Shown here piece after piece: positions 6,549 to 23,670 of a stretch of DNA of 33,398 nt (within the stretch, counting starts at the first letter, position 1; each line of letters begins with the position of its first letter). The translations under genes and the position numbers were made by a program. Under the pieces are notes generated by a model that was not told the DNA's origin, made no database searches, and saw nothing but the letters and a program-made list of their open reading frames with translations. Location of the stretch: assembly GCA_025354985.1 (NCBI GenBank), contig JANXLU010000051.1, positions 1 through 33,398 on the forward strand. The letters run 5' to 3'. Source of the DNA: Chloroflexota bacterium. Lineage in GTDB: Bacteria > Chloroflexota > Anaerolineae > J036 > Brachytrichaceae.

Positions 6549-6577
6549 TTGACAAATCAAATGTATGATGATAGTAT
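6549..6577 (+). promoter_or_regulatory. Candidate promoter of the LplB/YtcP/LplA-type transporter operon
   Basis: TTGACA at 6549-6554 and TAGTAT at 6572-6577 are separated by 17 bp. Transcription would begin about 6584, at or next to the ATG at 6585, which would make the first mRNA leaderless unless translation starts further in, for example at the GTG of IVNSRTS. Confidence 0.5.
6563..6577. promoter_or_regulatory. Operator B: 15-bp site between GH140 and ABC permease
   Basis: GTATGATGATAGTAT is identical over 15 bp to operator C upstream of apsD and matches RTAYNATNATNRTAY. It overlaps the spacer and -10 of the promoter-like pair TTGACA (6549-6554), 17 bp, TAGTAT (6572-6577), so a bound repressor would block polymerase. 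Confidence 0.75.
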
Positions 6578-6584
6578 CTATTTA

Positions 6585-7568
6585 ATGAACGCTGTCAAGG
6601 CCCGGATTGTGAACAGCCGGACATCCGCCAATAAGCGCGCAGCGCAGCCCCGCCGCCAGCGACTTGCTGCCTGGATCAATCGCAATGGCGCGCTGGTGCT
6701 GATGGCATTACCAGGCATGCTCGTATTGTTTACGTTCTCGTATGTTCCGATGCCGGGTATTGTGCTGGCCTTCAAGGATTTCAAGGCCGCGCTGGGAATC
6801 TGGGGCAGCGAATGGACCGGGTTTTCGAATTTTGAATATCTGTTCAGCACCGGTATTGCGCTGCGGATCATTCGCAATACGCTGTTCCTAAACGGGTTGT
6901 TCATTGTGGCCAATACGATTTGTTCGCTGGGCACCGCCGTGTTGCTGCACGAGGTTCACGAACGCTTCGTCTCGCGCATCTATCAGAGCGTGCTGTTCTT
7001 TCCATATTTCGTGTCGTGGGTCATCGTTGGGTATTTCATTTTTATTCTGTTTGGAACGGAGGGCGGTTTTATAAATGGGATTCTTGGCTCGTTTGGATTG
7101 GAACCCGTCAACTGGTATTCCAACCCGGCGTATTGGCCGGTCATATTGGTCCTGGCCAACCTTTGGCACAGCCTGGGTTATTTCACCGTCATTTATCTCG
7201 CGGGCATGCTTGCCATTAATCCAGAGTACTTTGAAGCAGCGCGCATCGATGGAGCCAACCGTCTGCAGGAGGTGTGGTTCATCATGCTTCCGCTGGTGCG
7301 CCCGCTGGTCATCATCAACTTGCTGCTGGCGATTGGGCGGATTTTCTTCTCCAACCTTGATTTGTATCTGAATGTGATTCGCAACCAGGGCGCCCTGCTG
7401 CCCACCACGGACGTTATTGACACGTATGTCTTCCGTTCGATCACGGTTCTGGGAAATTTCAACATGGCCGCAGCGGCCGGATTCTTTCAGGCATTTGTGG
7501 GGTTCGCGCTGGTGGTGCTGTGCAACTGGCTGGTCCGGCGATTCGAACCGGATCAGGCGCTGTTCTGA
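6585..7568 (+). CDS. Carbohydrate ABC importer permease, LplB type
   Basis: The 327-residue protein has a basic N-terminal tail, about six hydrophobic membrane segments, and the permease EAA loop EAARIDGANRLQEVWFIMLPL, which docks the ATPase. LPGMLVLFTFSYVPMPGIVLAFKDF near the start is characteristic of the LplB-like (oligosaccharide/aldouronate-type) inner-membrane permeases. ATG 6585 is chosen; the stretch upstream lies in the operator. It is followed after 4 bp by a second permease and then by a solute-binding lipoprotein. No ATPase gene accompanies the system, so a shared MsmK/UgpC-like ATPase encoded elsewhere is expected. Likely substrate: apiose-containing or other pectic oligosaccharide (inferred from the neighbourhood). 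Confidence 0.9.
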   Translation: MNAVKARIVNSRTSANKRAAQPRRQRLAAWINRNGALVLMALPGMLVLFTFSYVPMPGIVLAFKDFKAALGIWGSEWTGFSNFEYLFSTGIALRIIRNTLFLNGLFIVANTICSLGTAVLLHEVHERFVSRIYQSVLFFPYFVSWVIVGYFIFILFGTEGGFINGILGSFGLEPVNWYSNPAYWPVILVLANLWHSLGYFTVIYLAGMLAINPEYFEAARIDGANRLQEVWFIMLPLVRPLVIINLLLAIGRIFFSNLDLYLNVIRNQGALLPTTDVIDTYVFRSITVLGNFNMAAAAGFFQAFVGFALVVLCNWLVRRFEPDQALF

Positions 7569-7572
7569 GACC

Positions 7573-8457
7573 ATGAGTGGAGCCGCATTCAAACGCCGTC
7601 GCAGTATGACGCATGCCATGATTCATGGTGCCCTCGTCGCGACCTGCCTGGTCTGCATCGTTCCCTTATGGCTCATTATTTCGGCTTCATTTACCGATGA
7701 GCAGGCGTTGGTGGAACGCGGGTTTCGGTTGATCCCGGCGAAATTCAGCACAGAAGCATACCGGTTTTTGCTGGCGGATCCCGCGCAGATCTTGCGTGCC
7801 TACAGCGTGTCCGTGCTGGTCACGTTTAGTGGCGCCATGGTGAGCCTGTTTCTCATGTCCATGCTGGCGTACGCGCTCTCGCGACGCGATTTCTCGCTGC
7901 GCAAGGTGCTTGCCTTGTTTGTCTTCTTTCCCATCCTGTTCAACGCCGGCACCCTGCCGTTCTACATACTAATGGTGCGTCAGCTCGGTCTCAAAGACAA
8001 CCTGCTGGCGCTGGTGCTCCCGCCGCTGGTGCTGCCATTCTTCGTGTTGCTGTTGCGCACGTTCTTTTCAAATATTCCACGCGAATTGATTGAAGCGGCA
8101 AAGTTGGATGGCGCCTCGGAATGGCTTATTTACTTTCGCGTGGTGGTGCCCCTTTCGACGCCCGCCCTAGCCACGGTGGGTTTGTTCTCACTGCTGTTCT
8201 ATTGGAACGATCTTTATCTGTCGTTGCTCTTCATCAACGACAAGTCGCTTTATAACCTGCAATACCTGCTGTATCAAATCATTGCCAACATCCAACTGCT
8301 TGAAGAGGGATTTGCCGGCCAGGGTCTTAAACCACCCCTCCAGTCCGTGCGCATGGCCATGGCGGTTCTGGCCATGGGACCGGTCTTGTTCGCCTTCATG
8401 TTTGTGCAACGTTATTTCATCAAGGGAATCACATTGGGCGGGTTAAAGGGCGATTGA
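7573..8457 (+). CDS. Carbohydrate ABC importer permease, YtcP/MalG type
   Basis: The 294-residue protein is the second membrane subunit of the importer. It has about six membrane segments and the EAA loop ELIEAAKLDGASEWLIYFRVVVPL. SASFTDEQALVERGFRLIPAKFSTEAYRFLL after the first segment is typical of the YtcP-like partner of LplB permeases, as is the end QRYFIKGITLGGLKG. ATG 7573 is 4 bp after the stop of the first permease; the longer frame reading back to 7417 overlaps that gene and has no family support. Confidence 0.9.
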   Translation: MSGAAFKRRRSMTHAMIHGALVATCLVCIVPLWLIISASFTDEQALVERGFRLIPAKFSTEAYRFLLADPAQILRAYSVSVLVTFSGAMVSLFLMSMLAYALSRRDFSLRKVLALFVFFPILFNAGTLPFYILMVRQLGLKDNLLALVLPPLVLPFFVLLLRTFFSNIPRELIEAAKLDGASEWLIYFRVVVPLSTPALATVGLFSLLFYWNDLYLSLLFINDKSLYNLQYLLYQIIANIQLLEEGFAGQGLKPPLQSVRMAMAVLAMGPVLFAFMFVQRYFIKGITLGGLKGD

Positions 8458-8593
8458 AGCCAACGGACCGCAGGCATTCCAGGAGGTTTATTCACGCAAC
8501 AAGCACCACCATCCACACCCCACCGTTCCAAACCTGGTGGTTGGCCAGTCACGGCTATCCACAAAAGCAGATTCACAAGAGGAGCAAGAATAC

Positions 8594-10198
8594 ATGTTAA
8601 ACCAAACCAAACTAATGTCAGCAGTCATATGCATCGGCACGACCATGATGGTGTCGGCCTGCGCGGGTGCGCCCGTCGCACCCACTGCGCCGCCAGCGGC
8701 AACGGTTGCGCCCGCGCCCAAGGCCGCGGATCCAACCAAGGCGCCTGACGTGGCCAAGCCGGCCCCCGCCGCCGATGTGCCCGAGCTGACCTATCATTTT
8801 GTTGCGTTTAAGGACAAGGATGTCGCCATCATTGAAGAGGCGGTGAACAAGATCCTGATTCCAAAAATCGGGGCCAAACTCAAGCTTAAAACGTACGGCT
8901 TTAGCGACGCCGCGCAAAAAATCGCGCTGATGCTGCAGAGCGGCGAAACCTGCGATCTGATCTCGGTGGGTGGGTTTATTCCCTATCTGCCGTCCGTTGC
9001 AACCGGCGGGCTCGCGGCGCTCGATGACCTTTTGCCAAAGAACGCGCCCAATTTGTGGGCCCGTTACAAGCCGGAATGGTGGAACGCCGCACGTGTAAAT
9101 GGCAAAATTTACAACGCGTTGAACTACACCGGTTGGACCAGCTATGCCGGCTTCTGGGCCCGGTCTGATCTTATTGAAAAGTACAAGTTTGACTGGAAAA
9201 ACACCAAGAAGTGGGAGGACTGGGAGCCGCTGTTTGATAACATACTGAAGAATGAAAATGGTGTCACGCCCCTGCTCTCATCCGATGTTTGGGGGCAGTT
9301 CTGGTTCCCGACCTACTATGGTTACGACCCGGTGGATGACTCGATTGGCAGCGGACGCGGCGGCGCCCTCGTCGGCGTGAAAGTGGGTGACCCAAACCGC
9401 ACGGTGAAGCTGGTGCTCGATACGCCGGAATACCGCCAGGCGATTGATCTGGCGCGCACGTGGTACAGCAAGGGCTATGTGGCCAAGGATGTGGTGCCTG
9501 ACAACGACATGATTGCGAAGCGCGGCGCGCTCAAGTATGGCGGGTTCATGTTCCCCGGCACCGGAGACTTCTCGACGAAGAGCATGGCGGACGCCGAGTG
9601 GAAGGCCGTGCCCATTTTCACCCAGCACCTGCAGCAAAAGAACATGCTGACGACCGGGATCGGACGCACCGGTTTTACCGTGTGCGCAACTTCAAAGAAC
9701 CAGGACAAAGCGGTCAAGTTTATTGAAGAGATCAACCAGAATCCGGAGCTGTATAACCTGTTCAATTTCGGGATTGAAGGCAAGCATTGGGTCTGGAAGG
9801 ACAAGGCCACGAAAATAATCGACCTGCCGGCTGGCGTGACCGCGGACAGCGCGGCCTGGCTGCCAAACACCTACTGGCAATTCGGTGACCGGCGCCAGCT
9901 GTATCTCACTGATCCAACCGACGTGGGTGTGTGGGATCGCATCGACAAGGGCATCGCCGACGGGGACGTTTCGCCAGTGATGGGCTTCACGTTTAACCGC
10001 AAGCCGGTTGAAAAAGAGATTGCCCAGGTGAACACCGTGGCCAAGGAATTCGAGGGTTTGAACCGCGGGAGTGCGGATAATGTGGACGCCAAGCTGACAG
10101 AATACAAATCCAAATTGAAGGAAGCCGGTGTGGATAAGATCATCGCGGAAATGCAAAAGCAGGTCAACGACTGGTCCGCCACACTGCCCAAGAAATAG
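8594..10198 (+). CDS. Extracellular solute-binding lipoprotein of the LplA-like type
   Basis: The 534-residue protein begins with a lipoprotein signal ending in lipobox VSAC (Cys23), then a low-complexity Ala/Pro/Thr linker (about 25-65), then a large periplasmic-binding-protein fold with aromatic-rich ligand segments (ARYKPEWWNAARVNGKIY, NYTGWTSYAGFWAR, DVWGQFWFPTYYGYD). Its size exceeds most family 1 binding proteins and matches the LplA-type proteins that go with LplB/YtcP permeases. ATG 8594 is preferred over GTG 8537 because it places the signal peptide correctly and has AGAGGAG about 10 nt upstream. The 136-bp gap after the permease holds a small CCACC/GGTGG stem-loop, perhaps for differential expression of the binding protein. 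Confidence 0.9.
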   Translation: MLNQTKLMSAVICIGTTMMVSACAGAPVAPTAPPAATVAPAPKAADPTKAPDVAKPAPAADVPELTYHFVAFKDKDVAIIEEAVNKILIPKIGAKLKLKTYGFSDAAQKIALMLQSGETCDLISVGGFIPYLPSVATGGLAALDDLLPKNAPNLWARYKPEWWNAARVNGKIYNALNYTGWTSYAGFWARSDLIEKYKFDWKNTKKWEDWEPLFDNILKNENGVTPLLSSDVWGQFWFPTYYGYDPVDDSIGSGRGGALVGVKVGDPNRTVKLVLDTPEYRQAIDLARTWYSKGYVAKDVVPDNDMIAKRGALKYGGFMFPGTGDFSTKSMADAEWKAVPIFTQHLQQKNMLTTGIGRTGFTVCATSKNQDKAVKFIEEINQNPELYNLFNFGIEGKHWVWKDKATKIIDLPAGVTADSAAWLPNTYWQFGDRRQLYLTDPTDVGVWDRIDKGIADGDVSPVMGFTFNRKPVEKEIAQVNTVAKEFEGLNRGSADNVDAKLTEYKSKLKEAGVDKIIAEMQKQVNDWSATLPKK

Positions 10199-11304: not shown

Positions 11305-12336
11305 ATGACGGTAAAGCGATTTGCGATTCTCGGAACGGGATTTTGGGCCCGATACCAGCTGAGCGCGTGGCGCGAGCTGGACGGCGCGGTCTGCGTGGCG
11401 GTTTACAACCGCACACGCCACAAGGCTGAAGCGCTGGCGCGGGAGTTTGCCATTCCTTCGGTCTACGACGATGCCCGGATGCTGTTGGCACGCGAAAAGC
11501 TGGATTTTGTTGACATTATCACCGACGTGACCACGCATGCGGATTTGGTGCACGCTGTGGCCGGACAGGGCATTCCCGTCATTTGCCAAAAGCCGATGGC
11601 TCAAACACTGGCGCAGGCCGAGGCGATGGTGGGGGCCTGTCACGATGCGCACGTGCCACTGTTTATCCACGAAAACTGGCGCTGGCAGAAACCCATCCGG
11701 GCGTTAAAAGAACTGCTTGAAGCAGGACAAATCGGTCGTGTGCATCGGGCCACCATCACCATGGTGTCAGGCTTTCCAGTTTTCAAAAACCAGCCCTTTC
11801 TCGCCGATCTTGAGCAGTTTGTGATTACCGACATTGGCAGTCATATTCTCGATACGGCGCGTTTCCTGTTTGGCGAAGCCGATTCATTGTTCTGTCAGAC
11901 CCAACGCACGCTGGATTGGGTGAAGGGCGAAAATGTGGCGACCATCCTGCTGCGCATGCGGACCGGGCAGGCGGTGATTTGCAATCTGGGTTATGCGCAG
12001 AACCCGCTTGAACACGAGTGCTTTCCCGAAACACTCATTCATATTGAAGGCAGCCTTGGCTCGCTTGATCTGTGCCCGGATTTCAAAATACATCTGACAA
12101 CTCAAACGGGAACGCACATTACCCGGCACCCGCCGCCCCACTACGATTGGGCCCACCCAGCCTATGACCTGGTCCATGCAAGCGCCGTGCCTTGTAATGA
12201 GAACATTCTGCACGCGATTCGCGGGGGTGCCTCCGCTGAAACAACGGGTGAAGACAACCTTCATACGGTTCGGTTGGTGTTTGGCGCCTACGAATCAGCC
12301 GCTCTTAACCAGGTGGTTACGTTGCAGCGTCCATGA
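11305..12336 (+). CDS. apsD: Gfo/Idh/MocA oxidoreductase, probable D-apiose dehydrogenase
   Basis: The 343-residue protein has the N-terminal NAD motif GTGFWA (10-15), the nucleotide-domain lysine K96 in CQKPMAQT, and a C-terminal domain with the catalytic pair D176 and H180 in ITDIGSHILD. The segments GTGFWARYQLSAW, CQKPM, IHENWRWQKPIRALK and FPVFKNQPFL match the pattern I associate with ApsD, which oxidises D-apiose to D-apionolactone with NAD. ATG 11305 is chosen because family proteins begin just before KRFAILG. It heads an eight-gene operon and overlaps the following SDR gene by 4 bp. Gfo/Idh/MocA enzymes vary in substrate; the apiose call is supported by the apnL and GH140 genes and a shared operator. 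Confidence 0.77.
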   Translation: MTVKRFAILGTGFWARYQLSAWRELDGAVCVAVYNRTRHKAEALAREFAIPSVYDDARMLLAREKLDFVDIITDVTTHADLVHAVAGQGIPVICQKPMAQTLAQAEAMVGACHDAHVPLFIHENWRWQKPIRALKELLEAGQIGRVHRATITMVSGFPVFKNQPFLADLEQFVITDIGSHILDTARFLFGEADSLFCQTQRTLDWVKGENVATILLRMRTGQAVICNLGYAQNPLEHECFPETLIHIEGSLGSLDLCPDFKIHLTTQTGTHITRHPPPHYDWAHPAYDLVHASAVPCNENILHAIRGGASAETTGEDNLHTVRLVFGAYESAALNQVVTLQRP

Positions 12337-13133
12337 AAAACACAACCGATCTGATCCATGAATTGTTTTCGCTTGATGGAAAATGCGCCGTCATTACCGG
12401 CTCTGGCGGTGGCATTGGACGGGCCCTGGCGGTGGCTTTTTCGCAGGCCGGCGCCGTCATCGGCGCGCACAATCGAAGCGCCGCGCCGCTGGCCGAAACG
12501 CTGCGTCAAATTGATCTTTTGGGCGGGCGTGCGGTGGGGCTGAATGGCGATTTGACGGATCCGGGTGTGTGCCGGCCACTCATTCAACAAGCGCACGCCG
12601 CGCTTGGGCGGATCGATATTCTGGTAAATTGCGCGGGCATGAACCGCCGCAAACCATTGGACGAGGTGACGCAGGATGACTTCGACACAATCACGGCGGT
12701 CAACGTGCGCGCGGCGTTCTTTCTTTCCCAGGCGGTGCACCCCATCATGCGCGCGCAGGGCGGCGGCAAGATCGTCAACATCGGCTCGCTCACCAGCAGC
12801 ATTGGATTGGGCGGCATCAGCGTATATGGGCTTGGCAAGGCCGGGCTTGGCCAGCTCACCAAGACGATGGCGCTGGAGTGGGCGGGAGACAACATCCAGG
12901 CGAACTGCCTGGCGCCGGGATTCATAGACACGCCGCTCAACCACAAAGCGCTGTGGGGCGATGCAAAAAAGAGCGCGTGGATCCTTGAGCGCACCGCCGC
13001 ACGCCGCCCCGGCACCACGGCTGATCTGCTTGGTGCGGCGCTACTTCTTGCCTCGCCCGGTTCAGATTTCATCACCGGGCAAACCATCACGGTGGACGGT
13101 GGCTTTCTGGCGGGTGGATGGTGGGACGCGTGA
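12333..13133 (+). CDS. Classical SDR oxidoreductase, KduD / gluconate 5-dehydrogenase-like
   Basis: The 266-residue protein has all classical SDR motifs: TGSGGGIG (22-29), a variant NCAG (99-102, normally NNAG), S152, and YGLGK with Y165 and K169. Overall it resembles sugar-acid dehydrogenases such as gluconate 5-dehydrogenase and KduD, which interconvert an alcohol and a ketone on aldonic or deoxyketo acids. The start ATG overlaps the apsD stop (ATGA). Together with the next gene (FAH family) it recalls non-phosphorylative sugar-acid routes in which an SDR makes a diketo acid that an FAH enzyme cleaves. Its place in apiose metabolism is not known to me. Confidence 0.9.
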   Translation: MKNTTDLIHELFSLDGKCAVITGSGGGIGRALAVAFSQAGAVIGAHNRSAAPLAETLRQIDLLGGRAVGLNGDLTDPGVCRPLIQQAHAALGRIDILVNCAGMNRRKPLDEVTQDDFDTITAVNVRAAFFLSQAVHPIMRAQGGGKIVNIGSLTSSIGLGGISVYGLGKAGLGQLTKTMALEWAGDNIQANCLAPGFIDTPLNHKALWGDAKKSAWILERTAARRPGTTADLLGAALLLASPGSDFITGQTITVDGGFLAGGWWDA

Positions 13134-13146: not shown

Positions 13147-14010
13147 GTGAGGCTGGTCACATATGCGCACCGCAAACGACAACGCGTTGGCGTGCTACGC
13201 GATGACGCCGTGGTGGCCCTGCCATTTGGCTCGATGATCGAATTCATCGCCGCCGGGCGCGGCGCCATGGCGCTGGCGCGCGCTGCCAGCACCGATGCGC
13301 GGTCCGTGCGCCACCCAGTTGGCAAGCTTCAACTGCTTGCGCCCATTCCTAAACCCGGCAAAATGCTGTTTAGTGGGCTGAATTACAAGAGCCACATCAA
13401 CGAGAACGCGAATGCACGGTTTCTGGACAACCCGCGTTTTTTTGCAAAGCTCAACAATTGCGTGATTGGGCCGGGCGCGCCCATCCTGCACCCGGGCGCG
13501 CGCTTCCAGGTCGATTACGAGGTGGAGCTTGGTGTGGTCATCGGCACGCGGTGTCATCGGATTGCGGAAAAAGATGCGATGGGTTGCGTGTTTGGCTACA
13601 CCATTCTGCATGATGTGTCGGCGCGGTTAACCCAGTTCAACGACAACAACGAGACGATGGGCAAAAACTACGACACGTTTGCCCCCATGGGCCCGTGTAT
13701 CGTAACCGCGGACGAAATTCCCGATCCATCGGTGTTGGGATTGCGCACCTGGCTAAACGACATTCTGATGCAGGATGGCAGCAATCGCGATTGGTGCTTT
13801 CCACTGCCGCGCATACTTGCGTGGCTCAGCAGCGCGATGACGCTGGAGCCGGGCGACATCGTGACCACTGGAACGCCGGCAGGTACCGGCTATTTTCGCA
13901 AGCCACAGGTGTTCCTTTCGCCGGGTGACGTGGTGCGGCTGGAGATCGACGCGATCGGCTCACTCACAAACCCTGTGCGGACGATTGAGGACGAACGGGA
14001 AACCCCATGA
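13147..14010 (+). CDS. Fumarylacetoacetate hydrolase (FAH)-family protein
   Basis: The 287-residue protein has the FAH-fold metal site: E125 and E127 in DYEVELG and D156 in LHDVSAR, followed by GKNYDTFAPMGPCIV and GDIVTTGTPAGTGYF. The family hydrolyses or isomerises C-C bonds in acylpyruvates and diketo-deoxy sugar acids, or decarboxylates oxaloacetate-like acids. GTG 13147 (MRLVTYAH) is chosen: it places the start where the family starts and lies 13 bp after the SDR stop; the longer frame overlaps the SDR. The end overlaps the next gene by 4 bp. Possible substrate: a diketo acid made by the neighbouring SDR, otherwise unknown. Confidence 0.9.
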   Translation: MRLVTYAHRKRQRVGVLRDDAVVALPFGSMIEFIAAGRGAMALARAASTDARSVRHPVGKLQLLAPIPKPGKMLFSGLNYKSHINENANARFLDNPRFFAKLNNCVIGPGAPILHPGARFQVDYEVELGVVIGTRCHRIAEKDAMGCVFGYTILHDVSARLTQFNDNNETMGKNYDTFAPMGPCIVTADEIPDPSVLGLRTWLNDILMQDGSNRDWCFPLPRILAWLSSAMTLEPGDIVTTGTPAGTGYFRKPQVFLSPGDVVRLEIDAIGSLTNPVRTIEDERETP

Positions 14011-14822
14011 AAATCGGCATAGGCTCGTATGCATATCCACAATCCATGGGCGGCCATGGCGGCCAGCGCATGACCGCCATGGAAGTTCTCGCGGAAGCGC
14101 GCGCGCTGGCCGTTGGTGTGTGCCAACTGGCGGACAACGCGGGGTTGGAAGCGATGACCAATGGAGAGCTGGACGAACTTGCACGCTGCGCCCGGCTATG
14201 GAACATGGACATTCAACTGGGCGCCCGGGTGGGCGCGGCGGACGAAGTGCGGTCGTATCTTGCACTGTGCCGGCGCTTGAATGCCACGCTGCTGCGCGTG
14301 GTGCTGCGCCAACCGGTTGGAGCGCCCGCGCATTCCCTGGATGATTGGATTGAGATTGCAATGGACTGCGGTCAGCAGGCCGCCCACGCAGGAGTCACCC
14401 TGGCCATTGAAAACCACGACAGCATGCGCGCCAAAGACTTGCATCGCATCGTGCAATCCGCACATAGCGCGCACGTTGGTATTTGCTTCGACACCGCGAA
14501 TTCTCTGGGCTGCTTTGAGACTGCCGAAGCCGTGTTCGCCGAATTACGGGGGCAGGTTGTGTGCGCGCATATCAAGGACGTGACCATCCGCCGCGTGGGT
14601 CACAGCGAGGGTTTCGCAATTGAAGGCAGTCCCGCGGGCCGCGGAATGCTGAACCTGTCGACGCTGGTGCAACAACTGTGTGTGCTGCCAACCGAGCCGG
14701 CCTTGATTGTGGAGCACTGGTGCGCGCCGGAAAACACTTTTGCGGCCACGCTGGCGAAAGAAAAACAATGGACGCAGGCAAGCGTTGCGTATTTGCGCGC
14801 GCTGGAGGGCACACAACCATGA
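14007..14822 (+). CDS. oiaC: Xylose-isomerase-like TIM barrel, probable 3-oxo-isoapionate decarboxylase
   Basis: The 271-residue protein has the metal site of the sugar-isomerase/AP-endonuclease-2 TIM barrels: E135 (LAIENHD), D162 (FDTANS), H188 (AHIKD) and E236 (IVEHW). The block AHIKDVTIRRVGHSEGF followed by EGSPAGRG resembles what I recall of OiaC, which decarboxylates 3-oxo-isoapionate to L-erythrulose in one D-apionate pathway. The presence of apsD- and apnL-like genes supports this. It overlaps both neighbours by 4 bp (ATGA), suggesting translational coupling with the FAH gene and the ketopantoate-reductase-like gene. A generic sugar-phosphate isomerase/epimerase role is the alternative. 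Confidence 0.68.
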   Translation: MKIGIGSYAYPQSMGGHGGQRMTAMEVLAEARALAVGVCQLADNAGLEAMTNGELDELARCARLWNMDIQLGARVGAADEVRSYLALCRRLNATLLRVVLRQPVGAPAHSLDDWIEIAMDCGQQAAHAGVTLAIENHDSMRAKDLHRIVQSAHSAHVGICFDTANSLGCFETAEAVFAELRGQVVCAHIKDVTIRRVGHSEGFAIEGSPAGRGMLNLSTLVQQLCVLPTEPALIVEHWCAPENTFAATLAKEKQWTQASVAYLRALEGTQP

Positions 14823-15760
14823 AGATTGCGATTCTGGGTGGCGCAGGCGCCATGGGTAGCGTGATGGGCGCGGCGCTTGCAGACGGTGGTCAGGACGTGA
14901 CACTCGTCGATGTATCGGGCGGCGCGGTCGATCAGATTAACGCGCACGGGCTGCGCGTCGATCACAAACCCAGCGGCTCATCGCGGGTGGTGACCAATCT
15001 CAGAGCCACCACGGCGCCGGACACGGCCGGCATTCAGGATGTGATCCTTGTGTTTGTCAAGTGCTATCACACCGAGAACGCCGTGCGTCAAGCCCTGCCG
15101 ATGATGAACGCCAACACAACCGTGATGACGATTCAGAACGGCTGGGGCAACGGCGCGCGGATTGCAGACATCGTCGGCGCCAACCAGGTTGCCATTGGCC
15201 TTACCTATCACAGCGCAACCTTGATCGCGCCGGGCCACGCGTTGCATACGGGCGCGGGCATCACACACATCGGTGCAATGAGCGGCATGGTCACACCGCG
15301 CCTGAAAACCATCGCGGAGGTGTTCAACCAGGCCGGTCTGCCCACCGAAACGACCGATCAGGTGCTGGCGCAAATCTATATGAAGCTGGCGCTCAATTGC
15401 TGCACACTGCCCACCAGCGCGCTCTTGCGCTTTGAGGCACACAGGCTGGTTGAGCACACCGGTAGCATGGAAACCATGCGCGGCATCCTGCGCGAGGTGG
15501 TGGCCGTTGCCAACGCACAGGGTATTGCGCTCGATTATGTGGAACGCTGGAGCGCCATCACCAGCCTGCTCAAACGCGCTGTTGGCGGCAGGAGCAGCAT
15601 GCTGCAGGATGTTGACCACAATCGGCGCACCGAAATCGACGTGATAAATGGGGCAATAACCGAAGCCGGGCGCGGTCTGGGCATAGCCACCCCCCTGAAT
15701 GACGCAATGGTTTGGATGGTCCGGGCGCTTGAGGAATCATACGCCGGGGTGCGCGCATGA
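14819..15760 (+). CDS. Ketopantoate reductase (PanE/ApbA)-family oxidoreductase, candidate D-apionate-oxidising enzyme
   Basis: The 313-residue protein has the two-domain ketopantoate reductase layout: GGAGAMG (7-13), VKCYHT with K81, catalytic K189 in QIYMKLALNCC with N193, and the C-terminal SSMLQDVDHNRRTEID block with E272. Family enzymes reduce 2-ketopantoate to D-pantoate. Here it sits between OiaC-like and kinase genes, overlapping both by 4 bp, not with pan genes. D-apionate and D-pantoate are both 4-hydroxybutanoates with a C2 hydroxyl next to a quaternary C3, so oxidation of D-apionate at C2 is a plausible reaction. This is inference; a true panE is the alternative. Confidence 0.85.
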   Translation: MKIAILGGAGAMGSVMGAALADGGQDVTLVDVSGGAVDQINAHGLRVDHKPSGSSRVVTNLRATTAPDTAGIQDVILVFVKCYHTENAVRQALPMMNANTTVMTIQNGWGNGARIADIVGANQVAIGLTYHSATLIAPGHALHTGAGITHIGAMSGMVTPRLKTIAEVFNQAGLPTETTDQVLAQIYMKLALNCCTLPTSALLRFEAHRLVEHTGSMETMRGILREVVAVANAQGIALDYVERWSAITSLLKRAVGGRSSMLQDVDHNRRTEIDVINGAITEAGRGLGIATPLNDAMVWMVRALEESYAGVRA

Positions 15761-16782
15761 AATTCGCCGCCTCGGCCCCCGCCAAGGCCATCCTGTTTGG
15801 CGAACACAGCGTAAACCGCGGGCAAAGCGCGCTGGCCGTAAGTGTGGGTCTTCGGGCGCGCTGCACAATCGAAGAAAGCGGGGCGGATGGACTGACGCTT
15901 GAGGGCGGCAACGAGCACCAGTCCACCACGCGCGCGGCGCTTGCGGAACTTGCGGCCCGGGTGGATGCGTGGCGCACCACACAGAACTACGAAGAGCTTC
16001 GCACCCTGGCGCGCGCCGATTACTTCGCACCCGCAAAATACATTCTGGCGCATGCCCTTCCGGACGCGCCGGCCGGTGGATTGCAAATTGAATGGCACAG
16101 CGACATCCCATCCGCCGGAGGTCTGGGCTCGGGTGCCGCGAGTTTTGTGGCGCTTGCGTGCGCCCTGGCCGCCATGCGCGGCGCACGTGATGGCGGGATC
16201 AGCGCCGATCGGGACGCCATCGGCAAGCTGGCTTATCTCGGTGACGTGATCGCGCATGGTGGCGTTGCCTCGGCGCTGGATACGCAAACATCATTGCGAG
16301 GTGGCGCAATTGAATACACGCAGGAACACTGGGGGCGGCCGGTGCCTGCAAATGGCGGTCTTTGCATCGTCATCGGCAATACAAGAAAAAGGGGCCTTAC
16401 CAGCGAGGTGAACGCCGGTGTGCGCGCGTGGCTTGCACGTGACGAAACACGCATGGCATATTTTCAAATGATCGGCACATTGAGCACTGCAGCGCGCGCG
16501 CCGCTTGCAGCAGGTGACTGGCGCACACTTGGCTCACTTATGAACCTGAACCAACTGGTGCTTGAACGCATTGGCGTCAGCACGCCGCAGTTGGAAGACC
16601 TAAACCGCGCGGCGTTATCAGCCGGTGCGTTTGGCGCGAAGCTATCCGGCTCCGGCGGCGGCGGCATCATGCTGGCGCTGGCTTCGTCCGAAACCAGCGA
16701 TGCCGTGGCGCACGCCATCACGCGCGCAGGCGGCGAGGCGTTTAGCCCGCCCGTGTGCGTGGCCGGAGCAATGACTCTTTAA
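15757..16782 (+). CDS. GHMP-family kinase, mevalonate-kinase-like
   Basis: The 341-residue protein carries the three GHMP motifs: PAKAILFGEHSVNRG (8-22), the ATP loop IPSAGGLGSGAAS (117-129, with G in place of the usual second S), and AKLSGSGGGG (294-303). The candidate catalytic Asp is D175 in ALDTQTS. The pattern is closest to mevalonate kinase. However, no other isoprenoid gene is nearby; it is embedded in a sugar-acid operon with 4-bp overlap to the gene before. L-Erythrulose or another product of the OiaC-like reaction is a possible substrate. It may equally be a displaced mevalonate kinase. Confidence 0.85.
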   Translation: MKFAASAPAKAILFGEHSVNRGQSALAVSVGLRARCTIEESGADGLTLEGGNEHQSTTRAALAELAARVDAWRTTQNYEELRTLARADYFAPAKYILAHALPDAPAGGLQIEWHSDIPSAGGLGSGAASFVALACALAAMRGARDGGISADRDAIGKLAYLGDVIAHGGVASALDTQTSLRGGAIEYTQEHWGRPVPANGGLCIVIGNTRKRGLTSEVNAGVRAWLARDETRMAYFQMIGTLSTAARAPLAAGDWRTLGSLMNLNQLVLERIGVSTPQLEDLNRAALSAGAFGAKLSGSGGGGIMLALASSETSDAVAHAITRAGGEAFSPPVCVAGAMTL

Positions 16783-16788: not shown

Positions 16789-17445
16789 ATGACTTATACA
16801 ATCATTGACCTTACCCATACCCTGCTACCTGGACAGGAGCAATATTCGGTAGACATTAAACAGCGCGGCGCGTTGCGCACGACGCCTACGGGCGACATCA
16901 TGCATGACGTGAACATGTGGTCACACAGCGGCACCCACGTTGAAGTGTCGTCGCATTTTTATGCAGGTGGCAAGGACACCAGTGACTTTGCGCCGGATCA
17001 GTTTGTGGGCGCGGCCATCCGGCTGGATTTTCGACACAAGGCCGTGAACGAGGCGATCACGCTTGCGGATGTGCGCGCGGCGGGTGAGGTGCGGCCGGGT
17101 GACATTGTGATCCTGTGGGAGGGCTGCGAAGACAAATATCGCACATCCGCATCGCACCAGCGACCCTATCTGGCCGAAGATGCCGCAACGTGGCTGGCCC
17201 TGGAGATGAAGATCAAACTACTTGGCACCGATAGCAGCGGCTTCGAGGTGCGCGGACGCAATGATCATCCAAACCATCACCTGTTTTTTCGCGCCGGGGT
17301 GGATATTCCAGTGGTCGAATGCCTGCGCAACCTGGGCGCAATTTCAACGCAGCGGTTTATGTTTATCGGTTTGCCGATACCGGTCCGGGGGCTGGATGCC
17401 TCGCCAATTCGCGCGATTGCGCTTGAGGGCCTGGCTCTCCCGTGA
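16789..17445 (+). CDS. Cyclase-family (kynurenine-formamidase-like) metal hydrolase
   Basis: The 218-residue protein contains the family metal motif HxGTHxDxxxH as HSGTHVEVSSHF (46-57), with E52 where Asp is usual, and the later TDSSGFEVRGRNDHPNHHLFF segment that supplies further active-site histidines. PF04199 enzymes hydrolyse amides, lactams or lactones of small acids (for example N-formylkynurenine). No tryptophan-degradation genes are nearby. In this operon it could open a lactone or hydrolyse an acyl intermediate; the substrate is unknown. The gene starts 6 bp after the kinase stop. Confidence 0.85.
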   Translation: MTYTIIDLTHTLLPGQEQYSVDIKQRGALRTTPTGDIMHDVNMWSHSGTHVEVSSHFYAGGKDTSDFAPDQFVGAAIRLDFRHKAVNEAITLADVRAAGEVRPGDIVILWEGCEDKYRTSASHQRPYLAEDAATWLALEMKIKLLGTDSSGFEVRGRNDHPNHHLFFRAGVDIPVVECLRNLGAISTQRFMFIGLPIPVRGLDASPIRAIALEGLALP

Positions 17446-17462: not shown

Positions 17463-18473
17463 ATGAAAGCAGTATTCATTGATGCGCCGCACACCATGCG
17501 CGTGGGCGAGGCCAGCTTGCCGGTTGCAGGCGCGGGCGAAGTGGTCGTACGCAACCAGGCCGTTGGCATTTGTGCGGGAGACCTGTACATCTATCAGGGC
17601 AAAAATCCATACGCGCGCCTGCCCGCCGTTGGCGGGCACGAAATTGCCGGGCGCGTCAGCGAGATTGGCGCGGGTGTCACCGGCATCTCGGTCGGCGACT
17701 TTGTGGTGGTTGAGCCTTTCATTGGGTGCGGGGCATGCTATGCCTGCCGCGTCGGTAAACCAAACTGTTGTAAATCGCTCCGGATCATCGGCGCGCACCT
17801 GCCCGGCGGTTTTGCGGAATATGTGGCGGCACCCGCGCGGAACATTCACCATGTGCCGCACGGGCTCTCGCCCGTGTGGGCGTCGTTCGCCGAGCCGGTT
17901 GCGATTGGAGTGCAGGCCTGCCGGCGCGGTCAGGTTGCGGCTGATGACTTTGTGCTGGTGCTCGGCGCGGGTCCCATCGGTCTGGCCCTGATCGAGGTCG
18001 CGCGCGCGCGGGGTGCGCGCGTGCTATGCACGGATATTTCGCCCGATCGGCTGGCCATTGCGGCTACGCTTGGCGCGGAGACGCTGCCATCAGACGAGCA
18101 CCTGCCGCCCGCCATCCTGGCGATGACCGATGGGGATGGCATGCCGGTGGTCATCGAGGCCACCGGTAACCCGCGGGCAATGGAAAGCACGGTCGATCTG
18201 GTCGCCTCGGGCGGGCGGATTGTGATTGTGGGGTTGGTGAAGAACGGCACCATGATTCAGTTTCCCGGTCTCGACTTCACGCGCAAGGAAATGACGATCG
18301 TTGGTTCGCGGGCATCAACCGGCTGTTTTCCGGAGGCATTGAGCCTGCTTGCAAGCGGGCACATCCGCTACCCGCGGGTCGCGGTTGAGCACAGTCTGTG
18401 GGACGCGCCGGCCATGTTCGCGGAAATGGATGCGCAGCCCGGCAAGTATCACAAGGTGGTGCTAACCCCGTAA
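17463..18473 (+). CDS. Zinc-dependent medium-chain dehydrogenase, L-galactonate/idonate 5-dehydrogenase-like
   Basis: The 336-residue protein is a zinc MDR dehydrogenase: catalytic zinc ligands C37 (GICAGD), H59 and E60 (GGHE), structural zinc cysteines C89, C92, C95 and C103, and the Rossmann motif GAGPIG near residue 167. The pattern is like RspB and sugar-acid or polyol dehydrogenases. It is the last gene of the apsD operon, 17 bp after the cyclase gene. A C4 ketose/polyol such as erythrulose/threitol, or an aldonate, are candidate substrates by context. The 45-bp space to the convergent M24 gene shows no strong terminator hairpin. Confidence 0.9.
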   Translation: MKAVFIDAPHTMRVGEASLPVAGAGEVVVRNQAVGICAGDLYIYQGKNPYARLPAVGGHEIAGRVSEIGAGVTGISVGDFVVVEPFIGCGACYACRVGKPNCCKSLRIIGAHLPGGFAEYVAAPARNIHHVPHGLSPVWASFAEPVAIGVQACRRGQVAADDFVLVLGAGPIGLALIEVARARGARVLCTDISPDRLAIAATLGAETLPSDEHLPPAILAMTDGDGMPVVIEATGNPRAMESTVDLVASGGRIVIVGLVKNGTMIQFPGLDFTRKEMTIVGSRASTGCFPEALSLLASGHIRYPRVAVEHSLWDAPAMFAEMDAQPGKYHKVVLTP

Positions 18474-18518: not shown

Positions 18519-19706
18519 CTATCGCTGAACCGAAACCCCAAGCCGATACGGTTCATGCTGTGCCGGTGTTGTAACCATCGCACCCGATTCGGCGAGCAGC
18601 ACGTTGACCTCGCTTCGAATACCAATGTGCCCCAGGTAAATACCCGGCTCCACGGTTACGCCCAACCCCGGCAACAGCCGCCGCGTGTCGTGCGTTTCCC
18701 AATCGTCAAGATGGACGCCCTGACCATGCGCAGCGTTGCGCCCGAGGCTGTGCCCAAGCCGGTGCCGGAATGCCACGCCATATCCGCGAGATGTGATCAA
18801 GTCACGCGCGGCGCGGTCAACTTCCCACCCCTGCCGCACCGACCCGGCCGTGAGCAGTTTTATCGCAAGATCGCGCGCATCCCGAACCGCCTCCCAAACT
18901 TGCAAGTATTCGGCGGTTGGCTCGCCCGCAAACCCAACCCAGGTGATATCCGCCATTGGCCGATCCCGGATTCCGGCCCACAAATCAATCAGCACGCACT
19001 GCCCCATTTCCAGCGCGCGATTGGTTTGCGGGTTGGGGGCGTAGTGCCCGTCGCTGGCATGGCTGCCAAACGCGACAATGGCCGCATGATCGTAGGTCAA
19101 CCCGCGCGCCCCAAGCTCGGTCTCGATCAGTTGCTGCACGTCCAGCTCGGTCACGCTTTGATGCTCAACCAGGCGGCGGTGAATCAACTCAAAGGCGCAA
19201 TCTTTTGCATGGATGACACCGCTCACCGCTTCTTCATGGGCTGCCCGGTCCTGCGCGCTCCATGCCAGAAAACCCTGCAACAGATCCGCGCTCGACACCA
19301 CCTCCACACCGCATGACCGCACGTGCTCGAGCGTGCCCGCATCCACATAGCTCACATACGGAAGCCCGCCATTCGGGCTGTATTCCATGGCAACGCTGCG
19401 CGCACCGCGCAACGTGTCGCGCAGCAGGTCATCCAGCTCTTGATGTGAGGCAAATGCGCGAAAATCAACGGCTTCATCCGCCAGAACTTGCCGCCATGTG
19501 GTGGCTTCGATGCGGTGGTGAATGAGCGTGGCTTTCCCTGTTGCAGGGACCAACAGGAACCAGCGCCGTGTCAGAATACCCTGCCCCAGATTAATAAGCC
19601 CGGCGGGAAATGGATTCAGACCGCGAAAGTCATACAGCAGCCAGCCGTCCAACCCAGCGGCCCGCACCGCGGTTTGGATGGCGGAAATATTGGATGTATT
19701 TGTCAT
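18519..19706 (-). CDS. M24 metallopeptidase-family protein (Xaa-Pro aminopeptidase/creatinase-like)
   Basis: The 395-residue protein has an N-terminal creatinase-like domain (1 to about 150) and a C-terminal pita-bread domain with the five metal ligands of M24: D in LIDLWAG, D in ADITWVG, H in GHSLGRNAAHG, E in TVEPGIY and E in IRSEVNV. Such proteins cleave Xaa-Pro bonds, or hydrolyse amidino or amide compounds when not peptidases. It is the last gene of the eight-gene minus-strand operon and overlaps the class IV aminotransferase by 4 bp. Its link to sugar catabolism is not obvious; the pairing suggests an amino-acid-like intermediate. Confidence 0.88.
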   Translation of the reverse strand: MTNTSNISAIQTAVRAAGLDGWLLYDFRGLNPFPAGLINLGQGILTRRWFLLVPATGKATLIHHRIEATTWRQVLADEAVDFRAFASHQELDDLLRDTLRGARSVAMEYSPNGGLPYVSYVDAGTLEHVRSCGVEVVSSADLLQGFLAWSAQDRAAHEEAVSGVIHAKDCAFELIHRRLVEHQSVTELDVQQLIETELGARGLTYDHAAIVAFGSHASDGHYAPNPQTNRALEMGQCVLIDLWAGIRDRPMADITWVGFAGEPTAEYLQVWEAVRDARDLAIKLLTAGSVRQGWEVDRAARDLITSRGYGVAFRHRLGHSLGRNAAHGQGVHLDDWETHDTRRLLPGLGVTVEPGIYLGHIGIRSEVNVLLAESGAMVTTPAQHEPYRLGVSVQR

Positions 19707-20635
19707 TGCAACAAAGCGTAGCGCTCAACCCCGGCGTAATACAGTTCACGCAAGTGACCGGTCACGCGACCCGGCTGGCCATCGCCGATCAGCTGACCAT
19801 CCACCTGGATCACCGGCGTCAGGCCTCCAAAGGTACCCGTGACAAAGGCCTCATCAGCCGAGTAAACATCCACCAGTGAAAAATCCCGCTCGAAAACCGG
19901 CCAGTGATCCTCCCGGGCAAACTCGATCACCCGGCGGCGCGTTATCCCATTCATGCAATGCTGACCGGTGGATGTCCAGATCTGTCCCTTTACAACGATG
20001 AAAAAATTGGTGGAGTTGCATGTGCTCACTGCGCCATGCACATCCAGCATCAGCGCTTCATCCGCTCCGGCTTGTATGGCCTGATTCAGCGCCATTACCT
20101 CGTGCAGCTTGCTGTGGCAGTTCAGCCTTGGATCAAGTGTGCCAGGCGGCGGGCGCCGGATGGCCGAGGTAAACAATCGAATGCCTGCGGATGATGCGGC
20201 CGGGTTGGCGCGTTTGTGCTCGGCGATGATCACGATTGTTGCGCCGCCCATGATAAGCCGGGGATCCTGCGAAGGTGTCTTCTTGATGCCGCGGGTGATC
20301 ATGAGACGCACATGAACACCATCGCGCATATCATTTGCGCGCACAGTCTTGCGCATGGCAGCCGTGATCTCGGCGCGTGACATGCCGATATTGAGCGCGA
20401 TCGCCTTCGCACCTTGAAATAGCCGGTCCAGATGGTCTTCCAGGAATATGAACGCGTCGTGATGCAGGCGCAAGCCCTCCCACACGCCATCGCCCACCAG
20501 ATAGCCGCTGTCGAAGACCGATATTTTGGCGTGCTCACGCGGCGTCAACTCACCGTTGATGTAGATCAATACGCCATCATTGCGCTCGTCATGCAACGCA
20601 TCATGCGTGCCTCGGTACATGGGGGTTTCATTCAT
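19703..20635 (-). CDS. Class IV aminotransferase (D-amino acid / branched-chain transaminase fold)
   Basis: The 310-residue protein has the fold-IV PLP enzyme pattern: FDSGYLVGDGVWEGLR (41-56), the PLP lysine K176 in LNCHSKLHEV, and VTGTFGGLTPV near the C-terminus. The segment where family members usually have a Glu that touches the PLP ring nitrogen (E-x4-N-[IVF]-F) reads VSTCNSTNFF, placing T205 at that position, so this belongs to a divergent subfamily. It could transaminate a 2-oxo or hydroxy-2-oxo acid. The gene overlaps the M24 gene by 4 bp and is 144 bp downstream of the D-2-hydroxyacid dehydrogenase gene. Confidence 0.88.
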   Translation of the reverse strand: MNETPMYRGTHDALHDERNDGVLIYINGELTPREHAKISVFDSGYLVGDGVWEGLRLHHDAFIFLEDHLDRLFQGAKAIALNIGMSRAEITAAMRKTVRANDMRDGVHVRLMITRGIKKTPSQDPRLIMGGATIVIIAEHKRANPAASSAGIRLFTSAIRRPPPGTLDPRLNCHSKLHEVMALNQAIQAGADEALMLDVHGAVSTCNSTNFFIVVKGQIWTSTGQHCMNGITRRRVIEFAREDHWPVFERDFSLVDVYSADEAFVTGTFGGLTPVIQVDGQLIGDGQPGRVTGHLRELYYAGVERYALLQ

Positions 20636-20779
20636 TTCTGGTTCAGTACTGCCATCAACCGCTTATAACTTCGCCCCGCAACGGCGGGCTGACACCCGGC
20701 TGTTCGAGGGTCAATTCCCGCCACGGAAGGACAACCGTCTGATTGTATGGCGGCGGGTGATGAACGGGCGGCAAACCGC

Positions 20780-21733
20780 TTATGCCACGCGGTGCATCGG
20801 CGGCTCGCCGCGCAGCACGCGCAACACGTTCTCGACCGTGATCGCGGCCATTCGATGCTGACCCTCCACGGTCATGCCCGATGAATGCGGGGTGGCGATA
20901 AAGTTTTCAAGCGTGAGCAATTCGCTGCCAACCGGCGGCTCCTTGACAAACACATCGCAGGCCGCGCCCGCGATGGTCTGTGCCCGCAGCGCGCCCAGCA
21001 GGGCGGTCTCATCCACCAACTCGCCGCGCCCGGTGTTGATGAGATACGCCGTGCGCTTCATCAAGGAAAGGGTGCGTGCGTTTATCATCCCGCGGGTTTG
21101 ATCGGTGACGAGGGCGTGAAGCGTGACCACGTCCGCCCGCGCAAGCAATTCCTCCAGCGTCACAAACGCCACCCCATTGGCTTGTGCAAACCCGTGGTCG
21201 GGATACAGGTCGTAGGCGATGACGTGCATGCCGAAGCCACTGGCGCGCCGACACACGGCCTTGCCGATCGCACCCAGCCCGACGATGCCAAGCGTCTTGC
21301 CCGGCAGCTCAAACCCGATGATGCGTGGCCACGCGCCCGCACGCACCGCGGCATTTGTTTGCGGGATGTGCCGCGCCAGCGCCAGGATCAGCCCAAGCGT
21401 CATGTCCGCCACCGACTCGCTGATGGCGCCCACGGCCGCACCCACCGGTATGCCGCGCGCTTTGGCCGCAGCGAGATCGACGTTGTCATAACCCACGCCG
21501 TGCCGCACGATGGCGCGCAGCCTGGGCGCGGCCGCGATCACGCGGGCGGTGACCGGTTCCGTGCCCGCCAGCAGCACCTCCGTGTCGCCGATGATTGCCA
21601 GCAGTTGTTCTTCGCTGAGCGTCTTGTCGGTCACCCCGGACACAACATTCGCGCCCGCATCGCGCAGACGCTGGACGACTTCGGGTGCACCCAAACCAAA
21701 CGTGCGGGAGGTGATGAGAAGGCGGGTTGTCAT
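20780..21733 (-). CDS. D-2-hydroxyacid dehydrogenase (PGDH-like)
   Basis: The 317-residue protein has the NAD motif GLGAIG (152-157) and the catalytic triad R236 (NTGRGE), E265 (DVFVKEP) and H283 (ATPHSSG) of NAD-dependent D-2-hydroxyacid dehydrogenases such as phosphoglycerate, hydroxypyruvate or glyoxylate reductases. It lacks the regulatory ACT domain of full-length SerA. It follows the second extended SDR after 9 bp in the minus-strand operon. Reduction or oxidation of a 2-oxo/2-hydroxy acid from the sugar-acid pathway is likely; the exact acid is unknown. Confidence 0.92.
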   Translation of the reverse strand: MTTRLLITSRTFGLGAPEVVQRLRDAGANVVSGVTDKTLSEEQLLAIIGDTEVLLAGTEPVTARVIAAAPRLRAIVRHGVGYDNVDLAAAKARGIPVGAAVGAISESVADMTLGLILALARHIPQTNAAVRAGAWPRIIGFELPGKTLGIVGLGAIGKAVCRRASGFGMHVIAYDLYPDHGFAQANGVAFVTLEELLARADVVTLHALVTDQTRGMINARTLSLMKRTAYLINTGRGELVDETALLGALRAQTIAGAACDVFVKEPPVGSELLTLENFIATPHSSGMTVEGQHRMAAITVENVLRVLRGEPPMHRVA

Positions 21734-21742
21734 GGGTCTACT

Positions 21743-22747
21743 TTAAATGTCCTTGAGCAGGCCGGTGGCGTTTTGCCATGCGGCAATGATCCGATCGTCG
21801 AATGGGTCATCATCGCAGTTCTCGATCCTGCCATTCTCAACCAGCCATGCATAGTTTCGGCGCACGCCTTCAAGCACGGGTACTGTATGGCGAAAATCCA
21901 AATCGTCGCGCGCGGCGGACGTGTCGAAGATATTGTTGAACTGATAGTTCTCACGCGTTACCTGTGCCCGCCCGGGCGCCATTCGCGCGAGCACGTCCGT
22001 GGGAATGCGCACGATGACGGGCACAGGTGCGTCCAACGCCTGCGCGACCAGCCCATAGTAATGCGCCCAGGTCATGCGTTCCGCACCGGCAAGATGATAA
22101 GCCCGTCCGAACGTGCGCGGGTTGCCGGCTGCGGCTGCAAACGCACGGCCGGCATCATCGCAGTGGCACCAGCACCAGACCGAGCTGCCGTCTCCATGAA
22201 CGACGACGGGTCTGCCTTTACGAATGCGGTCGAGAAACGTGGTTTTGCGCCCGAACGTATGTGAAGGCGCGCTGCCCTCGCCATAGACGGTGGCCGGGCG
22301 AATGATAGTGACGTTCAGGTCACCCCGCGCATGCGCCGCGGTGAGTATGCGCTCGCATTGCGCCTTGTCCCGGCCATAGGCGCTAACGGGCTCAAGCGGG
22401 CGATCCTCGTTCACCGGGTAACCCACATGAGACTTTGCGTAGGCATCCACCGAGCTGCACAGGACATAGTGTGCGGTCCTCCCGGCAAACGCCCGCACGA
22501 CGGAGTCTGCATCTGCAGGCACGAAGCACACCATGTCGAGCACGCAGTCAAACGCGCCCAGCCCGCGCATGTGCATTTCAAACGCCGGGTGGTCCGTGCG
22601 GTCACCGTTGATCCGCTCAACGTCACCGGCAAAGCGCGTGGCGGTCTTGCTGCGGTTAAACAGCGTGACCGAGTGCCCGCGCGCCAGCAATTCGCGGCTG
22701 GCGACCGTGCTGATGAGACCGGTACCGCCGACGATGAGCACTCTCAT
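21743..22747 (-). CDS. NAD(P)-dependent epimerase/dehydratase (extended SDR), paralog 2
   Basis: The 334-residue extended SDR has GGTGLIS (7-13), the serine region LCSSVDAY (S98/S99) and Y124-x3-K128 (YGRDK). It is a paralog of the plus-strand gene at 10212-11279, with the same length and the same C-terminal FDDRxIxAW block. Each copy travels with one of the two ABC importers. It overlaps the upstream glycosidase gene by 4 bp. Function is unknown beyond NAD(P)-dependent chemistry on a sugar-like substrate. Confidence 0.82.
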   Translation of the reverse strand: MRVLIVGGTGLISTVASRELLARGHSVTLFNRSKTATRFAGDVERINGDRTDHPAFEMHMRGLGAFDCVLDMVCFVPADADSVVRAFAGRTAHYVLCSSVDAYAKSHVGYPVNEDRPLEPVSAYGRDKAQCERILTAAHARGDLNVTIIRPATVYGEGSAPSHTFGRKTTFLDRIRKGRPVVVHGDGSSVWCWCHCDDAGRAFAAAAGNPRTFGRAYHLAGAERMTWAHYYGLVAQALDAPVPVIVRIPTDVLARMAPGRAQVTRENYQFNNIFDTSAARDDLDFRHTVPVLEGVRRNYAWLVENGRIENCDDDPFDDRIIAAWQNATGLLKDI

Positions 22748-23670
22748 GGCGTTGCCGGGAAATCACGCAGAAAATCAAACACCTGTCGATGATATGGGCT
22801 GAAATCCGGATCCGGAATACCGCTGGGCGGAGTGGCCGGAAAGCCATACGGTTTCTGGAACATATCGTGGTGATACAGATAGTAGCCACCCACCGCGCGC
22901 ACCCGTCTGGCCTGCGCGATGTGCTGCCAGGGCTGCGCACCTGGCACTCCGCCAAACTGGGCGATGCCATTCCGGGCGGGCTCGTCATCGATGACCGGCT
23001 TTTGATACCGCCGCAACAACAATTCAATTTGCCCCGGCGCAACCACCCAAAAGCCGTCCGGGCTTTGGCGGTTGGTGTGCGGTGTCAGCACATCCATCAG
23101 GGTGTTTTGCGCCTCGTCACCCAGTTCATCCGAGAAGCCCGGTGAATTGGTGATGATGCGTTGCGCATCCTCCATCTTGGCGATTTCACCGAGCCTGATC
23201 ACATCGGTCGAATCCTCGTTCCATATCTGGAGTATGAGGTTTCGGTGCGGCTTGAGCAGGCGCGTCATCTGACGGGTGGCGTTCTCAAGCGCGGGCAAGC
23301 CAAGGTTGGGTTCCTTTTCATGCGAGAACAGCGTCAGTTCAATCGTCATGCCCTGTACGTCGATGAGGTCAATCAGGTTGGATAGTGTGGCGAACCGATC
23401 CTCGCGAACATCGCCATCGGGGGTGTAGAGGGTGGCATCGGCAGCCGTGTCTACAAATGCACGCGGCTCCACATAGTCCCATTGACACCAAACGCGCAAC
23501 GCATTGATGCCGTTGGCCTTGAACTTGCGCAGCCACCGCAGGCGCTCGTCATTGTCAACGTTAAACGCCGGGTTGTAGAGCGCATTGAAAAAGCTCAGGC
23601 CTTGTAATGGAAATGGTGCGCCGTCCAGCAGCAATCTTGTTCCGGAAACTGAAAGTGTATGGTTGGACAT
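22744..23670 (-). CDS. Clan GH-A glycoside hydrolase, cellulase/GH5-like, cytoplasmic
   Basis: The 308-residue protein looks like a single (beta/alpha)8 glycosidase. Candidate catalytic residues are the acid/base E152 in LQIWNED at the end of strand 4 and the nucleophile E230 in KPVIDDEP at strand 7, the usual clan-A arrangement. There is no signal peptide or binding module. It lies 21 bp downstream of the MalG-type permease and overlaps the SDR gene by 4 bp, so it should act on the sugar imported by that transporter. I cannot assign a specific GH family or linkage. Confidence 0.75.
   Translation of the reverse strand: MSNHTLSVSGTRLLLDGAPFPLQGLSFFNALYNPAFNVDNDERLRWLRKFKANGINALRVWCQWDYVEPRAFVDTAADATLYTPDGDVREDRFATLSNLIDLIDVQGMTIELTLFSHEKEPNLGLPALENATRQMTRLLKPHRNLILQIWNEDSTDVIRLGEIAKMEDAQRIITNSPGFSDELGDEAQNTLMDVLTPHTNRQSPDGFWVVAPGQIELLLRRYQKPVIDDEPARNGIAQFGGVPGAQPWQHIAQARRVRAVGGYYLYHHDMFQKPYGFPATPPSGIPDPDFSPYHRQVFDFLRDFPATP

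Follow-up and report, generated by a model that had tools for sequence, protein, structure and literature searches.

A PanE-family protein in an apiose gene cluster of a Chloroflexota bacterium, a putative NAD-dependent sugar-acid dehydrogenase

The window, a stretch of 33,398 nucleotides from a Chloroflexota bacterium, carries a gene of the PanE/ApbA family within a cluster for the oxidative degradation of D-apiose. We consider it fairly probable that the encoded protein, which has the ketopantoate-reductase fold, was recruited to the catabolism of sugar acids as an NAD-dependent D-2-hydroxyacid (sugar-acid C2) dehydrogenase. The cluster is best read as a previously undescribed form of oxidative apiose catabolism that includes such a dehydrogenase, with a putative substrate and product. 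Apiose, a branched sugar, occurs in plant cell walls (in rhamnogalacturonan II) and in flavonoid glycosides. In the proposed route, it would be freed by the apiosidase and then imported; an ApsD-type enzyme would oxidize it to the lactone and an ApnL-type lactonase would yield D-apionate. The PanE-like enzyme would then oxidize one of the route's acids, D-apionate being the likeliest, at its C2 alcohol. Downstream, the resulting 2-oxo acid may be rearranged, cleaved or phosphorylated by the OiaC-type, FAH, ADH and MBL proteins, the GHMP kinase and the cyclase. Substrate, direction and product of the PanE-like enzyme as well as all downstream steps are predictions. If true, the cluster would present a second chemical solution for the acid of apiose, on a vitamin-biosynthesis fold and in a route running without ApnO. 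It would also be a warning that many annotated 'ketopantoate reductases' are catabolic dehydrogenases.

The apiose gene cluster and its missing genes

The assembly to which the window belongs (as contig C39) measures 4.19 Mb and is 95.8% complete. Its features are compiled in Table 1. The genes by which an oxidative D-apiose cluster was recognized, those for apiosidase and importer, ApsD and ApnL, all have counterparts in the window, the ApnL-type protein scoring below the equivalog cut-off. This gene content supports the assignment of the genes around the PanE-like gene to a genuine apiose/apionate cluster. The following steps are expected from either ApnO and OiaC or ApnO, OiaK and OiaX; here an OiaC-type gene was present, ApnO and OiaK were not found in the genome and OiaX was absent from the window. 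The GH51-type gene beside the ApnL-type gene suggests arabinose- and apiose-bearing plant glycans as substrate. In the operon on the opposite strand, the epimerase matched a gene of another apiose locus (L155) at 55%, and the protein without a Pfam match reads like a glycoside hydrolase.

Table 1. Features of the window, with coordinates, strand and basis of the assignment
Coordinates	Strand	Feature	Basis
938..2482	-	GH51-type arabinofuranosidase, adjoins the ApnL-type gene	ArfA-like, 231 bits (cut-off 625)
2473..4317	-	ApnL-family D-apionate lactonase, divergent	NF049900, 276 bits, E 5e-82, below 750-bit equivalog cut-off; alignment
5243..6541	-	Apiosidase-family hydrolase; 51% to that of L077, which adjoins ApnO-OiaK-OiaX	Pfam PF13204, E 9e-119
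6549..10198	+	ABC sugar importer: two permeases and a DUF3502 protein, presumed solute-binding protein	Pfam
11305..12336	+	Gfo/Idh dehydrogenase, ApsD-type (D-apiose dehydrogenase)	Tree: 96/91 grouping with Gfo/Idh of an ApnO-OiaK-OiaX cluster
12333..13133	+	SDR dehydrogenase, KduD/gluconate 5-dehydrogenase-like; 40% homologue in G158 apiose operon	Pfam/NCBIfam
13147..14010	+	FAH-family protein, GTG start; 53% identity to FAH of L019 PanE module	Domain match
14007..14822	+	OiaC-type TIM barrel (3-oxo-isoapionate decarboxylase family), metal-ligand motifs retained	Family match, alignment
14819..15760	+	PanE/ApbA-family dehydrogenase, intact, ATG start, 313 aa; proposed NAD-dependent D-2-hydroxyacid (sugar-acid C2) dehydrogenase	Open reading frame check, Pfam/NCBIfam, residues, Asp31, fold, clade
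15757..16782	+	GHMP kinase, mevalonate-kinase-like paralogue, recurrent in apiose loci of the phylum	Above mevalonate kinase cut-off (176 vs 163 bits)
16789..17445	+	Cyclase family PF04199; 52-57% homologues next to the kinase in other apiose loci	Pfam
17463..18473	+	Zn-dependent ADH; 57-66% identity to module ADH	Pfam, comparison
18519..25541	-	Operon: M24 peptidase, class IV aminotransferase, 2-hydroxyacid dehydrogenase, epimerase, unmatched protein, ABC permeases	
20780..21733	-	D-2-hydroxyacid dehydrogenase, PGDH-like; 53% homologue inside G158 apiose operon; rival for apionate C2 oxidation	Comparison
27904..28668	+	UlaG-like MBL-fold hydrolase; 62-76% identity to module MBL	Comparison
30461..33370	-	969-aa protein, likely surface protein	Seven SdrD_B-like matches

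A cluster on a Rhizobium plasmid (L085) served as reference: OiaX is annotated, a hypothetical protein of 623 aa passes the ApnL equivalog with 1033 bits, and the ApnO position is filled by a PF16896-type protein. In Pantoea (L141), a PF16896-family gene adjoins an OiaC-type barrel and genes for dihydroxyacetone kinase and triose-phosphate isomerase. From these two neighbourhoods, we take the PF16896 family to be ApnO. The protein encoded upstream of the PanE-like gene is a xylose-isomerase-like TIM barrel. Its Pantoea homologues adjoin the ApnO-family gene and the same two triose-related genes, so the name 'OiaC-like', which an earlier note on this DNA had used, is correct. The same note had placed the PanE-family gene between the OiaC-like and the kinase gene with 4-bp overlaps. 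Both overlaps were found, at 14819-14822, where the OiaC-type gene ends, and at 15757-15760, where the GHMP kinase gene starts. The note had further recognized no ApnO in the window and regarded a genuine apnO of the same regulon elsewhere in the genome as contrary to its proposal. Searches with the ApnO-type protein of locus L023 and with the PF16896 profile yielded no match in the window or in the rest of the 95.8%-complete genome, which rejects an ApnO outside the window, while the same profile as a positive control matched in 12 genomes of a set of 22, made up of the window's genome and 21 others that encode a close relative of the PanE-like protein. An OiaK elsewhere in the genome was likewise rejected, as none was found. 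Judged from these searches, the ApnO gap in the apionate route of this genome is real.

Properties of the PanE-family protein

The PanE-like protein matched both domains of the family, ApbA (E 3e-36) and ApbA_C (E 5e-29), and contains the glycine-rich NAD(P) motif and the Asn-Lys-Glu catalytic residues. To TIGR00745 it scored 246.7 bits, the cut-off being 141.35. Its best relative shares 57% identity over about 306 columns, which excludes a chance match. PF16896 (PGDH_C), the domain of the ApnO family, gave no match; the protein is not a member of that family. The alignment showed that Asn98, Lys176, Glu256, Lys72, Ser244 and Asn180 (E. coli numbering) are retained in its clade. In L032 and in each of the 20 loci aligned from the genome scan, three asparagines are replaced, that at 184 by Leu, that at 194 by Ala, Ser or Thr, and that at 241 by Gly, Ala or Thr. 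In the modelled substrate complex, the carboxylate is contacted by Asn184 and the backbone of Ser244, the 4-hydroxyl group by Asn194 and Asn241, and the 2-oxo group by Asn98 and Lys176 (PMC10127515). With the catalytic residues kept and the three asparagines replaced, the redox machinery for 2-hydroxy/2-oxo acids appears intact and the recognition of pantoate gone. The new pocket positions (Leu, Ala, Gly) are less polar, which is no obvious advantage for a polyhydroxy acid like apionate and is a point against the proposed function.

At position 31, the end of the second strand, the clade has Asp (Glu in L019) in place of the Arg of E. coli ketopantoate reductase. An Asp at this position is the usual sign of a preference for NAD over NADP. 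The AlphaFold model had a pLDDT of 91.6, and the closest solved folds were D-mandelate dehydrogenases, among them a ternary complex with a TM score of 0.92. In the phylogenetic comparison with true PanE, a check that the earlier note had proposed, the gene fell into a separate clade (support 100/98) and not on the branch of E. coli PanE; the paralogues from the window's own genome are also outside the clade.

One may ask whether the gene is a bona fide ketopantoate reductase for pantothenate synthesis that is located here by chance. The TIGR00745 score above the cut-off speaks for it. Against it stand the loss of the pantoate-binding Asn184, Asn194 and Asn241, the position outside the E. coli PanE branch, the 4-bp overlaps with catabolic genes and the missing panB, which was not found in the 95.8%-complete genome with controls matching in 11 of 14 cases. 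Without a detected panB, ketopantoate is probably not made, hence pantothenate synthesis is not the likely role of the gene. On the missing panB and the lost contacts we reject a bona fide PanE as highly improbable. The organism itself is probably a pantothenate auxotroph or uses another route.

The PanE gene set in other genomes

Members of the PanE clade were observed in 21 loci of five phyla. Many of these loci have in common a set of PanE, MBL-fold hydrolase, ADH and FAH genes, to which alpha-proteobacteria usually add Gfo/Idh and ApnL-family genes. The window contains all six module genes, with identities to module members of 48-57% for PanE, 57-66% for ADH, 62-76% for MBL and 53% for FAH (L019). 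Of 24 genomes with a clade or near-clade PanE, 19 had ApnL-type genes; in the window's phylum, the corresponding figure was 18 of 400 genomes (Fisher p ~4e-19, only indicative, as genomes of other phyla were mixed with a baseline from this phylum and relatedness was ignored). The set PanE-MBL-ADH-FAH-Gfo/Idh-ApnL is conserved and apparently undescribed, and presents a compact, testable unit. No paper was found that joins apiose with ketopantoate reductase or reports this gene set, a weak negative since subscription journals were mostly outside the search.

The clade members coexist with different partners. ApnO-family genes were detected in 12 of the 22 clade genomes, and in L023 both are located in one cluster with the order Gfo/Idh, ApnO, OiaC-type, AraC, PanE, MBL, ADH, FAH; a search of 388 genomes of its phylum recovered only this already known case. 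In the acidobacterial locus L019, the OiaC-type gene is directly upstream of PanE as in the window, and the genome has no PF16896 match. OiaC is missing from the modules of alpha-proteobacteria, and the downstream chemistry therefore varies within the clade. In Mesorhizobium genomes, a canonical apionate cluster and the PanE module are separate, and the module has a transporter of its own; there, the substrate of the PanE-like enzyme may be a different aldonate.

Another genome of the window's phylum (G158) has an apiose operon of 11 genes (loci L185/L196 on contig C2): Gfo/Idh, apiosidase, SBP, two permeases, GHMP kinase, cyclase, 2-hydroxyacid dehydrogenase, SDR, ApnL and ADH. Within the 36 kb examined around this operon, PanE, ApnO, OiaC-type, FAH and MBL genes were not found, and a PanE clade member was absent genome-wide at E 1e-50. 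The window encodes counterparts of three dehydrogenases of this operon, the 2-hydroxyacid dehydrogenase (53%), the ADH (62%) and the SDR (40%). The pair of GHMP kinase and PF04199 cyclase recurs beside ApnL or apiosidase genes in the window, L155, L185 and L186, and L194 has the kinase without a detected cyclase. A role of the window's kinase as the mevalonate kinase of the cell is unlikely, for a better-scoring copy is present on contig C19; it is probably a new kinase of the apiose pathway.

Candidate roles in apionate oxidation

The earlier note had proposed the PanE-type enzyme as a stand-in for ApnO, and this proposal holds in part. For the window it agrees with the apiose cluster, the genes not found (ApnO, OiaK, panB), the clade apart from PanE and the loss of the asparagines for the 4-hydroxyl group. 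The chemistry agrees as well: a D-configured C2 hydroxyl beside a quaternary carbon fits such an enzyme, and pantoate and apionate share this D-configured C2 next to a quaternary C3. As a general rule, a replacement of ApnO by the PanE clade is not supported, because 12 of 22 clade genomes encode both, in L023 even in one cluster. The operon of G158 without PanE and the three other dehydrogenases in the window further weaken the proposal. In its strict form, the PanE-like enzyme alone would oxidize D-apionate and direct the migration that gives 3-oxo-isoapionate; the OiaC-type enzyme encoded next to it would then decarboxylate this product to L-erythrulose. We regard this form as doubtful. The missing ApnO family, established with a working positive control, the OiaC-type gene immediately upstream with its overlap, and the same gene order in L019 are in its favour, together with the shared C2 configuration; the cluster of L023 with ApnO, OiaC-type and PanE genes, the other clade genomes with ApnO and the apiose operon of G158 are not, and the ketopantoate-reductase fold is not known to have the metal site that is normally needed for a migration of the ketol-acid type. 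For the PanE-like enzyme, the alkyl-migration half of the ApnO reaction is hypothetical.

The ApnO gap may also be filled by the 2-hydroxyacid dehydrogenase, the Zn-ADH or the SDR of the window, with the PanE-like enzyme acting elsewhere in the route. All three have homologues in the operon of G158, a genome in which the search at E 1e-50 gave no member of the PanE clade, and ADH is a frequent partner of ApnL. The absence of ApnO in G158, however, covers only the 36 kb around the operon, and the 2-hydroxyacid dehydrogenase of the window belongs to a separate operon on the opposite strand; we hold this assignment as tentative, too. In an unlikely role, the PanE-MBL-ADH-FAH set, joined by a Gfo/Idh enzyme and an ApnL-like lactonase of its own, would degrade the aldonate of another sugar (to a 2,4-diketo acid cut by FAH, for instance) and would simply lie next to the apiose route in the window. 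The two systems in Mesorhizobium, the separate clade of the module Gfo/Idh genes (99/100) and the resemblance of FAH and ADH to the pair in diketo-hydrolase sugar pathways are consistent with such a role. In the window, however, a single operon holds the module genes interspersed with OiaC-type and ApsD-type genes. The ApsD-type gene, moreover, groups in the tree with those of L023 and of the canonical cluster L081 rather than with the module genes of alpha-proteobacteria.

The NAD-dependent C2 dehydrogenase of sugar acids remains our preferred function. An extension of it is a speculative proposal: a further oxidative D-apiose pathway without ApnO or the RuBisCO-like OiaX, in which an NAD-dependent enzyme of the PanE family would oxidize D-apionate at C2 and the mevalonate-kinase-like GHMP kinase, FAH, ADH and MBL would lead to central metabolism, the module being present in Chloroflexota, Pseudomonadota, Verrucomicrobiota, Acidobacteriota and Poribacteria.

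Compared with known systems, the window shares ApsD-type, ApnL-type and OiaC-type genes with the clusters of Rhizobium and Pantoea (ApsD-ApnL-ApnO with OiaK-OiaX, or ApnO-OiaC), but differs in the undetected ApnO and OiaK, in the lack of OiaX in the window and in the additional genes for PanE, FAH, ADH, MBL, GHMP kinase and cyclase. The PanE-like enzyme would take the step of ApnO (D-apionate oxidoisomerase, PF16896/PGDH_C) between ApnL and OiaC, yet belongs to a different protein family. With E. coli PanE (2ofp, 1ks9) it has in common the fold, the NAD(P) Rossmann domain and Asn98/Lys176/Glu256, whereas the three pantoate-binding asparagines are lost, Asp31 replaces Arg31, and the gene is part of a catabolic operon in a genome in which panB was not found. 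Closest in fold are the PanE-family D-mandelate/D-2-hydroxyacid dehydrogenases (3wfi, 5x20, 8wl1), with about 30% identity and the NAD-type Asp after strand 2; the substrates of these enzymes are aryl or branched aliphatic 2-hydroxy acids, whereas the protein of the window is encoded among genes for sugar acids.
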